Assembly (NCBI GenBank): GCA_025458245.1
Contig: JALOSW010000008.1
Span: 1-32,919 of the forward strand
Direction of reading: 5' to 3'
Source: Burkholderiales bacterium
GTDB lineage: Bacteria; Pseudomonadota; Gammaproteobacteria; Burkholderiales; SG8-39
Length of the DNA stretch: 32,919 nt
The notes beneath the pieces are model-generated. The model had not been told where the DNA came from. It made no database searches and saw only the letters and a program-made list of their open reading frames with translations. Each line of letters begins with the position of its first letter. Positions within the stretch are counted from its first letter, which is position 1. Position numbers and translations under genes: made by a program. Below are positions 21,461 through 26,491 of this stretch, piece after piece.

Positions 21461-22315
21461 TCAGGCGGACATCAGGCCGCGCATCTTCTGCATGGCTTTC
21501 GCCTCGATCTGGCGGATGCGCTCGGCCGAGACGTCGAACTCGTCGGCGAGCTCCTGCAGCGTCGCTTCATCCTTCTCCCGCAGCCAGCGCGCCTCGATGA
21601 TGCGGCGGCTCCGCGGGTCGAGGCTCGCGAGGGCGGCGCGCAGCCCCTCCGCGCGGACGCGCTCGTTCTGCGCCTCCTCGACCACGCTCGAGGGTTCGCT
21701 GCCGGGATCGGCGAGGTAGGCGATCGGCGCATACGTGGCCTCGTCGTCGTCGTTCGCCGGTTCGAGGGCGACATCCTGCCCCGAGAGACGGGTCTCCATC
21801 TCCGACACTTCCTCCGGCTTCACCCTGAGCTCCGAAGCGATGCGCTTCACCTCGTCGGGCGTGAGGGTCGCGAGCCCGGGCTTCATGCTGCGGAGATTGA
21901 AGAAGAGCTTGCGCTGCGCCTTGGTCGTGGCGACACGAACCATCCGCCAGTTGCGCAGTATGAACTCGTGAATCTCTGCCTTGATCCAGTGGATGGCGAA
22001 CGACACGAGGCGCACTCCGCGCTCCGGGTCGAAGCGCTTCACGGCCTTCATCAGGCCGACGTTCCCTTCCTGAATGAGGTCGGAGTGCGGCAGACCGTAG
22101 CCGAGATAGCCGCGCGCCACCGCCACGACCAGACGCAGGTGCGAGAGCACCAGGTCGCGGGCGGCGTCGAGGTCGTTCGCGTCGCGATAGCGACGCGCGA
22201 GCGTCACCTCTTCCTCCGCCGAGAGCATTGGGAAGCGGTTGACGGCCTGGACATAGCTCTCCAGGCTGCCGACCGCAGACGGGATGGGGAAGGAAAGCAC
22301 CGTCGAATTGGTCAT
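21461..22315 (-). CDS. rpoH: RNA polymerase heat-shock sigma factor RpoH
   Basis: MTNSTVLSFPIPSAVGSLESYVQAVNRFPMLSAEEE..., LPHSDLIQEGNVGLMKAVKRFDPERGVRLVSFAIHWIKAEIHEFILRNWRMV; QRKLFFNLR RpoH box. Confidence 0.96.
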   Translation of the reverse strand: MTNSTVLSFPIPSAVGSLESYVQAVNRFPMLSAEEEVTLARRYRDANDLDAARDLVLSHLRLVVAVARGYLGYGLPHSDLIQEGNVGLMKAVKRFDPERGVRLVSFAIHWIKAEIHEFILRNWRMVRVATTKAQRKLFFNLRSMKPGLATLTPDEVKRIASELRVKPEEVSEMETRLSGQDVALEPANDDDEATYAPIAYLADPGSEPSSVVEEAQNERVRAEGLRAALASLDPRSRRIIEARWLREKDEATLQELADEFDVSAERIRQIEAKAMQKMRGLMSA

Positions 22316-22340
22316 TCGTTCTCCGTTCGCTTCAGTGCGC

Positions 22341-22370
22341 ATATTAGCACTCGCGAAGTTGGAGTGCTAA
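22341..22370 (-). promoter_or_regulatory. Putative rpoH sigma70 promoter overlapping CIRCE
   Basis: Minus strand TTAGCA-18 nt-TAATAT; -10 at 22341-22346. Confidence 0.5.
22344..22370. promoter_or_regulatory. CIRCE operator (HrcA binding site) upstream of rpoH
   Basis: TTAGCACTC-GCGAAGTTG-GAGTGCTAA: exact 9-9-9 match to the canonical CIRCE element. Confidence 0.95.
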
Positions 22371-22409
22371 ATCGACCAGGAGTTCCCTTGAAACGGTCTT
22401 GCTCCGCCC

Positions 22410-23306
22410 TCAGCGCCGATCACGTAAGTGGACACTCACTGATATCCACGCCCCCATCAGGCCTAGAATCGCTGCAAGGCCGGTGGCAGCGCCGATGAGC
22501 ATCGGCGGCGGGAGAATCGGGGTCGGCTCCCCGCCGTAGAGACGCGCCAGACCAGCCAGGAACGGCGTCAGGTACCAGGAGGCCGCGGCGACGATGGCGC
22601 CCGCCAACAGCGCGCCGAGCACCCCCTGGACCGCCCCCAGGTACAGGAACGGCCGCCGAATCCATGCGTCGGTGGCGCCGACGAGCCGGCTCACCTCGAC
22701 TTCGTCGCGACGCGTGGCGAGCTGCAGCCTGACGGTGTTGAACGTGGCGGCGACGAGCCCCACGCCGAGCAGGGCCGCGAGGACGAGCGTCGCCGCGCGC
22801 CCGAGCGCGAGGATCGACTGCAGGCGCTGCACCCAGGCGGTGTCGACCTGGACCTTCGCGACCTTGGCGAGGCCGCCAGCGCGCGACGCCGCGTCCTCGG
22901 CGGCGGCGCCTGGCGCGAGCCGCAAGACGAACGCGTCCGGCAAGGGGTTGCGCCCGAGCGCAGCGACGATCTCTGCGAGGCCCTCCGTCCTGCCCATTTC
23001 GGCGAGCGCCTGATCCTTCGGTACGAAGCGCACCTGCCGCACGCCCGGGAGCCTGGCGAGCTCCGCACGCAGCCGGTCGGCGTCCGCGCGGGTCGCGCCG
23101 AGGTCGAGGAACACCGACATCTCTGGCTCTGTGGCCGAAGTGGGGACGAGCCGTTCGACGGTCGCGAGCGCAACGAATGCGCCGAGCGGCAGCGCGAGTG
23201 CCACGCCGATGACGAGGGCGTTCAAAAGGCTGCCGAGCGGGTCGCGCGCCACCCGCCGCAAGGCGGCAGCGAGGCTTTGGCGATGGTGCCTCAGCCAGCC
23301 TCTCAT
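22410..23306 (-). CDS. ftsX: Cell division protein FtsX
   Basis: MRGWLRHHRQSLAAALRRVARDPLGSLLNALVIGVALALPLGAFVAL..., RRDEVEVSRLVGATDAWIRRPFLYLGAVQGVLGALLAG; ATGA overlap with ftsE. Confidence 0.92.
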   Translation of the reverse strand: MRGWLRHHRQSLAAALRRVARDPLGSLLNALVIGVALALPLGAFVALATVERLVPTSATEPEMSVFLDLGATRADADRLRAELARLPGVRQVRFVPKDQALAEMGRTEGLAEIVAALGRNPLPDAFVLRLAPGAAAEDAASRAGGLAKVAKVQVDTAWVQRLQSILALGRAATLVLAALLGVGLVAATFNTVRLQLATRRDEVEVSRLVGATDAWIRRPFLYLGAVQGVLGALLAGAIVAAASWYLTPFLAGLARLYGGEPTPILPPPMLIGAATGLAAILGLMGAWISVSVHLRDRR

Positions 23307-23962
23307 CGAGCCACCCGCCCGTGGTCGAGCCGGATGGTGCGCGAAGCGAAGCGCGCGGCGAGTCCGAGATCGTGCGTCGCGATGATCACCGTCACGCCGA
23401 CACCGTTGAAGTCGCGGAACATCGCCATGATCTCCGCGGCCAGGTCGGCGTCGATGTTCGCAGTCGGCTCGTCGGCGAGCAGGATGCTCGGGCGGTTGAC
23501 GATCGCCCGCGCGATGCAGAGGCGCTGCTGCTCGCCCCCGGAGAGCGTCGCCGGGTTGCTGCGCTCCCGGTCGAGCAGGCCGACCTTGTCGAGGGCCGCG
23601 CGCACGCGCTTTGCCGCGTCGCGCGGCGCGACGCCTGCCGCCGCGAGCGGCAGTACCACGTTTTCGAACGCGTTGCGGTCGTGCAGGAGCTTCTGGTCCT
23701 GAAAAACGAGGCCGAGGTTGCGGCGCAGGTACGGGATCGCCGGGGCGCGCATCCGGCCCACGTTCTGTCCGTTCACGAGCACCGCGCCCTGAGTGGGGCG
23801 CTCTACGGCGGGGATCAGCTTGAGGAGCGTGGACTTGCCCGCGCCCGAGTGACCCGTGAGGAACACCATGTCGCCCGGCTCGACGTCGAGCGTGACGCCG
23901 CGGAGCGCCTCGTGCCCGCCGGGATAGCGCTTGCCGACTTCCTTGAAGCTGATCGCGGACAC
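23303..23962 (-). CDS. ftsE: Cell division ATP-binding protein FtsE
   Basis: GHSGAGKSTLLKLI, LSGGEQQRLCIARAIVNRPSILLADEPTANID. Confidence 0.95.
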   Translation of the reverse strand: MSAISFKEVGKRYPGGHEALRGVTLDVEPGDMVFLTGHSGAGKSTLLKLIPAVERPTQGAVLVNGQNVGRMRAPAIPYLRRNLGLVFQDQKLLHDRNAFENVVLPLAAAGVAPRDAAKRVRAALDKVGLLDRERSNPATLSGGEQQRLCIARAIVNRPSILLADEPTANIDADLAAEIMAMFRDFNGVGVTVIIATHDLGLAARFASRTIRLDHGRVAR

Positions 23963-23980: not shown

Positions 23981-24916
23981 CTAGTCGAGCAGCGCCCGCG
24001 CGAAATCCGCCGCGGAGAACGGGCGCAGATCGTCGATGCCCTCGCCGACGCCGATGAATACGAGCGGAACCGGGCGGTTCTTCGCGATCGCCGCGACCAC
24101 GCCGCCTTTCGCCGTGCCGTCGAGCTTGGTGAGGATGAGCCCGCTGAGCCCGAGCGCGTCGTCGAACGCTTTCACCTGGTTCACCGCGTTCTGGCCGGTG
24201 TTCGCGTCGAGCACGACCCACACCTCGTGCGGCGCGCCCTCCTGCGCCTTGGCGATCACGCGCTTCACCTTCTTCAGTTCTTCCATCAGGTGAAGCTGGG
24301 TCGGCAGCCGGCCCGCGGTATCGGCAAGGACAACGTCGATTCCCCGCGCGCGCGCCGCCTGGATTGCGTCGAAGATCACCGCCGCCGCGTCGCCGCCCTC
24401 CTGCGCGATCACCGGCACGCCATTGCGCTCGCCCCATGCGACGAGCTGCTCGCGCGCCGCCGCGCGGAACGTGTCGCCCGCGGCGAGGAGCACCGAGAGG
24501 CCTTCGCTACGGAGGAATTTCGCGATCTTGCCGATGGAGGTCGTCTTGCCGGCGCCATTCACCCCCGCGATCATGATCACGAAGGGTTTCGCCGCGCGCG
24601 GGTCGATGTCGCGCTCGAGGGGCGCGAGCTGTCCGGAGATCTCGGCCGCAAGCGCGTGGCGAAGTTCGGCGGGCGTTTCGATTTTCTCGCGCTTTACGCG
24701 CATGCGCAGCGCCGCGAGCAGGGCGTTGGTTGCCTCGACGCCCGCATCGGCCTGCAGGAGCGCGGCTTCGAGATCCTCGTAGAGCGCCTCGTCGATCTTC
24801 GTGCCGCCGAACAGGCCGCCGAGCGAGGAGCGCGTCTTCTTGAGGCCGTCCTTGAGCCGCGAGAGCCACGAGGCGCTCTCGGGACTGTCCTTGGATTTCT
24901 TTAGGAAGCCGAACAT
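23981..24916 (-). CDS. ftsY: Signal recognition particle receptor FtsY
   Basis: MFGFLKKSKDSPESASWLSRLKDGLKKTR..., GVNGAGKTTSIGKIAKFL, DTAGRLPTQLHLMEEL, LTKLDGTAKGGVV. Confidence 0.96.
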   Translation of the reverse strand: MFGFLKKSKDSPESASWLSRLKDGLKKTRSSLGGLFGGTKIDEALYEDLEAALLQADAGVEATNALLAALRMRVKREKIETPAELRHALAAEISGQLAPLERDIDPRAAKPFVIMIAGVNGAGKTTSIGKIAKFLRSEGLSVLLAAGDTFRAAAREQLVAWGERNGVPVIAQEGGDAAAVIFDAIQAARARGIDVVLADTAGRLPTQLHLMEELKKVKRVIAKAQEGAPHEVWVVLDANTGQNAVNQVKAFDDALGLSGLILTKLDGTAKGGVVAAIAKNRPVPLVFIGVGEGIDDLRPFSAADFARALLD

Positions 24917-24938
24917 CGGGCGGGAGGAGGGCGGGTCC

Positions 24939-24960
24939 GCGACACCGGGCCCGGTGTCGC
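24939..24960. promoter_or_regulatory. 22-bp perfect palindrome in the ftsY/rsmD divergent intergenic
   Basis: GCGACACCGGGCCCGGTGTCGC, no spacer. Confidence 0.6.
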
Positions 24961-24997
24961 CAACTCGAACCCGATAAGATGGCGCAGATTCTAGCAG

Positions 24998-26491
<1,494 letters not shown>

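Follow-up and report, generated by a model that had tools for sequence, protein, structure and literature searches.

The DNA analysed here (the window, a whole stretch of 32,919 nt from a Burkholderiales bacterium) carries a CIRCE-type inverted repeat just upstream of rpoH, which raises the question of whether the gene for the heat-shock sigma factor is itself controlled by the HrcA repressor and, if so, through which promoters.

A CIRCE operator upstream of rpoH

The initial annotation described a perfect CIRCE 28 bp before the rpoH start codon, and both observations were borne out. The site, TTAGCACTC-N9-GAGTGCTAA (full site TTAGCACTCGCGAAGTTGGAGTGCTAA), occupies positions 22344-22370 (no strand assigned) with zero mismatches, is a predicted HrcA operator, and is separated from the ATG at 22315 by exactly 28 nt. 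The slightly broader interval originally annotated (22341-22370) encompasses this operator and three extra bases that complete a TAATAT hexamer. No other CIRCE occurs in the window when up to three mismatches are allowed, and none arose at the same threshold in 100 dinucleotide shuffles of the window. Together with the assembly-wide scan and the conservation of the site at rpoH in relatives described below, the shuffles rule out a chance occurrence.

The downstream gene (21461-22315, reverse strand) is a true rpoH, encoding a sigma-32 of 284 aa that exceeds the cut-off of two NCBIfam models: TIGR02392, an equivalog (411.8 bits versus a cut-off of 323.1), and NF005143 (429.9 bits). A GGAG Shine-Dalgarno sequence (22321-22324, reverse strand) lies 5 nt 5' of its ATG. 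An in-frame ATG at 22342 is an unlikely start, because it falls inside the predicted -10 hexamer and has no Shine-Dalgarno sequence. Upstream, on the same reverse strand, lie ftsX (22410-23309, start approximate; PF18075 and PF02687, with TIGR00439 at 248.6 bits, just below its cut-off of 255), ftsE (23303-23962; TIGR02673, 272.4 bits) and ftsY (23981-25141; TIGR00064, 332.1 bits), the last two over cut-off. The stretch between ftsX and rpoH yielded no terminator, so that readthrough from ftsX is possible and rpoH may not be uncoupled from ftsYEX in the way suggested earlier.

HrcA and CIRCE sites in the genome and in related species

The search for hrcA and for additional CIRCE sites proposed in the initial annotation returned both. 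The assembly (2.98 Mb in 267 contigs, 77% complete) contains one hrcA, a 347-codon ORF without internal stops (PF01628, E 1.2e-69) that is divergent from a gene reading as NAD kinase. At up to three mismatches, only two CIRCE sites were identified in the whole assembly: the one at rpoH and a second, with one mismatch, located on contig C13, 83 nt 5' of the start of a groES gene truncated at the end of the contig. The visible HrcA regulon hence comprises groES(L) and rpoH, and the groES site rules out a regulon restricted to the latter. Divergent from groES and adjoining it, the same contig encodes an apparent secreted protein (L003:413-1530) with several repeat copies resembling LTPEER-A-Q-KMQAA-TPEERQKIRDEHRA, separated by Pro- and Gly-rich sequence.

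No CIRCE was detected at the hrcA gene of this genome, and HrcA autoregulation in the window's family was rejected, since none of its 30 hrcA loci presented the operator at up to three mismatches; one of them (L146) has a single four-mismatch match. Many gammaproteobacteria do present a third CIRCE near hrcA (e.g. G122:C1:2162220, G120:C1:1971260, G121:C11:108375 and G101:C2:131353), suggesting autoregulation, unlike in the window's family.

We searched 40 relatives, 24 from the same genus or family and 16 from the same order. All the rpoH orthologue loci fetched from them carry CIRCE just upstream, with zero or one mismatch, hrcA was identified in 41/41 relatives examined, and nearly all relatives have exactly two or three CIRCE sites per genome. 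The groES sites used for comparison below also derive from these genomes (34 of 35, the remaining one being that of the window's own genome). In one relative (G020) groES is present twice, and both copies have a CIRCE without mismatches (G020:C24:94119 and G020:C98:695).

To these we added 80 loci from named genomes or MAGs in a genome collection, including Thauera, Aromatoleum, Nitrosomonas, Cupriavidus, Bordetella, Burkholderia, Paraburkholderia, Herbaspirillum and Methyloversatilis. Pooling both sets yielded 109 distinct betaproteobacterial rpoH loci with enough upstream sequence (the window's locus counted once, with possible overlap of species), and CIRCE was present upstream of rpoH in 106 of them at up to three mismatches and in 100 at one or none. 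The conservation check called for in the initial annotation thus gave a positive answer, and this result, combined with the class-wide conservation reported below, rules out a lineage-specific oddity.

Predicted promoter elements nested in the operator

Inspection of the 106 betaproteobacterial rpoH regions anchored on CIRCE revealed that WAT follows the right arm, GAGTGCTAA, generating TG-C-TAAWAT, with A (0.90) and T (0.98) dominating bases 28 and 29 after the CIRCE start. In the window, the right arm and the three bases that follow it form TGC-TAATAT (22341-22349, reverse strand), the extended -10 of a predicted sigma-70 promoter. A weak candidate -35, TTAGCA (22365-22370, reverse strand), can be read directly 18 bp from it and appears as TTGGCA in many relatives. 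A simple scanner returned no consensus sigma-70 promoter here, placing TTAGCA-18-TAATAT below its threshold, and the extended -10 is therefore argued from conservation. The earlier placement of -35 and -10 elements in the CIRCE arms hence holds in that TTAGCA-18-TAATAT is present and its extended -10 is conserved; its -35 is not.

The position of the -10 predicts a start site at approximately 22333-22335 (reverse strand) and a leader of about 19 nt. Such a short leader had been taken to leave little room for an RNA thermometer, but it does not exclude one, because the E. coli rpoH thermometer lies largely within the coding region. Folding of the mRNA 5' end (z -2.03 here versus -1.46 in E. coli) was neither special nor excluding, and judging a thermometer by fold alone was set aside as uninformative.

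The sites at groES provide an internal reference for these patterns. In the same genomes, groESL carries the same 27-bp operator, for which the same repressor is expected. There, however, CIRCE directly follows a sigma-32 promoter (CTTGAAA-N14-CCCTAT) that abuts the operator, the loop starts with G (0.89, n=35), and the extended -10 and the sigma-E elements described below are absent. A T occupies the third position past the right arm in 87 of 97 sites at rpoH versus 2 of 35 at groES (p 7e-20). The promoter-like bases hence belong specifically to rpoH regions rather than to the HrcA site itself. Furthermore, departures from the CIRCE consensus at rpoH affect the left arm rather than the right arm, which doubles as -10: the left-arm variant TTGGCACTC occurs in 44 cases, against 3 matching right-arm variants, whereas groES sites present 4 and 4 (p 0.006 for the contrast).

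A second conserved block, GGAACTT, was detected in the 106 rpoH regions at positions -16 to -10 relative to CIRCE, and the CIRCE loop in these regions tends to start with TAA. Joined to the fixed TC of the left arm, these elements define GGAACTT-N16-TCTAA, the form of a sigma-E promoter, which is nested in the same operator and which the initial annotation had overlooked. The window presents a sigma-E (RpoE)-type -35, GGAACTC (22380-22386, reverse strand; column consensus GGAACTT), followed after 16 nt by a -10, TCCAA (22359-22363, reverse strand), that spans CIRCE left arm and loop. This GGAACTC-N16-TCCAA motif scores 10 of 11, a value reached by 0.7% of shuffles of the flank sequence. A score of at least 9 of 11 was reached by 67% of order loci, compared with 6% of the same kind of shuffles, and by 73% of class loci, compared with 5% of shuffles, with the -35 offset fixed at -16 or -17 in most loci. 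In Burkholderia, Bordetella and their relatives the sigma-E-like motif is located some 28 to 35 nt ahead of CIRCE, which would put the sigma-E start at or within the operator.

The motif is also associated with rpoE. Among CIRCE-bearing rpoH loci, a good GGAACTT was identified in 55 of 81 genomes with rpoE versus 1 of 11 without it (p 3e-4; the Fisher tests used here treat genomes as independent and ignore shared ancestry). RpoE is present in a same-genus relative and in 37/41 genomes, and no RpoE over the family cut-off was found in the window's own 77%-complete assembly. This assembly does encode an RpoE-like sigma factor (G000:C48:5248-5799; 213 bits, below the family cut-off), which has a counterpart in the same-genus relative and is a possible RpoE paralogue.

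The result in our own assembly fits an alternative in which HrcA represses rpoH via CIRCE and the sigma-70 promoter alone is real, GGAACTT being a leftover or serving some other role. So does the existence of lineages with CIRCE and the -10 that lack GGAACTT; a convincing sigma-E-type motif is missing from roughly a quarter to a third of CIRCE-bearing loci. We consider this alternative unlikely, given that GGAACTT sits at a fixed offset, is enriched over shuffles and is associated with rpoE, and that its -35 and spacing are the same as those of the E. coli rpoH promoter that depends on sigma-E.

Loci in which the operator has decayed bear on the same point. In Nitrosospira (L044) the CIRCE arms are lost and GGAACTT-N16-TCTTA is kept; Lautropia (L110) and a further genome (G033, in which no RpoE over cut-off was found) have degenerate operators and keep TGCTAGTAT; and two other genomes (G153 and G077) keep GAGTGCTAAAAT with the left arm absent. 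Persistence of the promoter after loss of the operator is expected under a model of nested promoters.

Class-wide association of CIRCE at rpoH with hrcA

We sampled 143 genomes, approximately one per family, from the GTDB class Gammaproteobacteria, which includes the Betaproteobacteria, searched them for rpoH, hrcA and CIRCE, and read the upstream regions of all 130 rpoH genes over cut-off. CIRCE was present at rpoH in 89 of the 95 genomes with hrcA versus 8 of the 35 without it (Fisher p 2.7e-15, inflated by shared ancestry), and in none of 15 further gammaproteobacteria lacking hrcA. Six class genomes have hrcA yet no CIRCE at rpoH. Among the eight in which CIRCE was found at rpoH and hrcA was not detected, four are 62 to 85% complete, so that their assemblies may just not include hrcA, and four have an estimated completeness of 97 to 99%.

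Outside the class, CIRCE was identified at rpoH in 1 of 23 genomes with hrcA and in 0 of 7 without it. In one non-class genome (G213, locus L401; family f169) the rpoH operator has three mismatches, TTAGCACTC-N9-AAGTGCCAG, and could reflect transfer or independent gain; members of its family carry several rpoH-like genes. Elsewhere, the rpoH upstream region of genome G050 (locus L308) presents a GAGTGCTAAAATTT half-site directly abutting a full CIRCE, as if an operator-promoter unit had been duplicated.

The loss of CIRCE along with hrcA bears on a further explanation, in which CIRCE would act mainly in RNA, with readthrough from ftsX carrying a hairpin that protects or gates the rpoH mRNA. 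A 9-bp hairpin can form from CIRCE, and the lack of a detectable ftsX-rpoH terminator would allow for such readthrough. Nonetheless, the asymmetry of the arm changes (44 left-arm G versus 3 on the right) fits promoter overlap better than a stem, and both predicted starts lie within or after CIRCE, so the main transcripts would not contain both arms. With CIRCE disappearing where hrcA does, a primary role in RNA appears very improbable. Least credible of all is that CIRCE at rpoH is an idle, neutral relic: in Mesorhizobium loti a site matching the CIRCE consensus need not confer strong heat induction (PMC3989490), but here, in about 100 families, 18 positions are kept near-perfectly on either side of a loop that varies freely, and the operator is lost where hrcA is lost.

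A putative HrcA-controlled circuit for rpoH

The region upstream of rpoH hence contains a CIRCE and promoter-like elements that are conserved, specific to rpoH and associated with the presence of hrcA and rpoE. On these sequence grounds, HrcA probably blocks both sigma-70 and sigma-E transcription of rpoH via CIRCE in a GroEL-dependent manner. The HrcA control of rpoH put forward in the initial annotation is thus supported by the presence of hrcA and by an operator that is conserved, tracks hrcA and overlies the predicted promoters; we infer HrcA binding, repression, promoter use and GroEL dependence at rpoH from these features.

Under this model, a control region of about 46 bp would have the sigma-70 promoter, with its extended -10, and the sigma-E promoter sharing DNA with a single CIRCE. 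With HrcA on CIRCE, neither holoenzyme would gain access and rpoH expression would stay low. HrcA activity requires GroEL, as established in B. subtilis, and HrcA would therefore fall off when unfolded protein occupies the chaperonin, allowing rpoH to be transcribed. Released rpoH would have a basal output from sigma-70 and a higher one from sigma-E under envelope stress. Transcription of groESL by sigma-32 would follow, the CIRCE at groESL being freed simultaneously. Because CIRCE is present at both groESL and rpoH, HrcA would repress groESL as well as its activator, sigma-32, and the recovery of GroEL would restore HrcA, closing a feed-forward arrangement through chaperonin feedback.

Comparison with known systems

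The presence of CIRCE at rpoH is of a kind already known. A perfect TTAGCACTC-N9-GAGTGCTAA was predicted upstream of rpoH, at position -51, in Geobacter sulfurreducens (Rodionov et al. 2004, PMC545781, Table 8), bearing out the earlier remark that a link between HrcA and sigma-32 might not be new in principle. The passages of that study consulted here also place groESL and hrcA-grpE-dnaKJ of G. sulfurreducens under CIRCE, and describe no nested sigma-E promoter at its rpoH (PMC545781). The species belongs to a different phylum-level lineage from that of the window's organism. In the open literature, this prediction was the only direct precedent found for CIRCE at rpoH, and text on HrcA or rpoH was absent from Leyn et al. 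2016. Nor did the open literature searched yield a description of the class-wide breadth, the association with hrcA or a nested sigma-E promoter, although an earlier report may exist.

E. coli resembles the window in its ftsYEX-rpoH gene order and in the presence upstream of rpoH of TGAACTT-N16-TCTGA, the sigma-E-dependent rpoH promoter P3. It differs in lacking CIRCE at rpoH, and no HrcA family match was obtained in the E. coli control genome. The E. coli rpoH gene has a longer intergenic region with several promoters, and sigma-32 is set by translation, stability and these promoters, with no HrcA involved. In the window's organism, and in most members of its class that have HrcA, a single short DNA segment appears to receive the signals of both chaperone shortage and envelope stress, an arrangement absent in E. 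coli.

The comparative data lead us to favor the view that rpoH in the Gammaproteobacteria, Betaproteobacteria included, is mostly, and probably was ancestrally, controlled through an HrcA operator over nested sigma-70 and sigma-E promoters. E. coli and other hrcA-less lineages would be derived, having lost the GroEL-sensing repressor, with the sigma-E promoter kept in E. coli. If so, GroEL availability would determine the sigma-32 level through transcription in most of the class, and a chaperonin-sensing repressor would stand above the heat-shock sigma factor, also gating its envelope-stress input, in most of the class as sampled here. Provided that the architecture works as predicted, GroEL, HrcA, sigma-E and sigma-32 would be linked in a single circuit, testable in many tractable species. 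E. coli serves as the textbook case for the heat-shock response, and the comparison suggests that the E. coli wiring would be a reduced version of this circuit.
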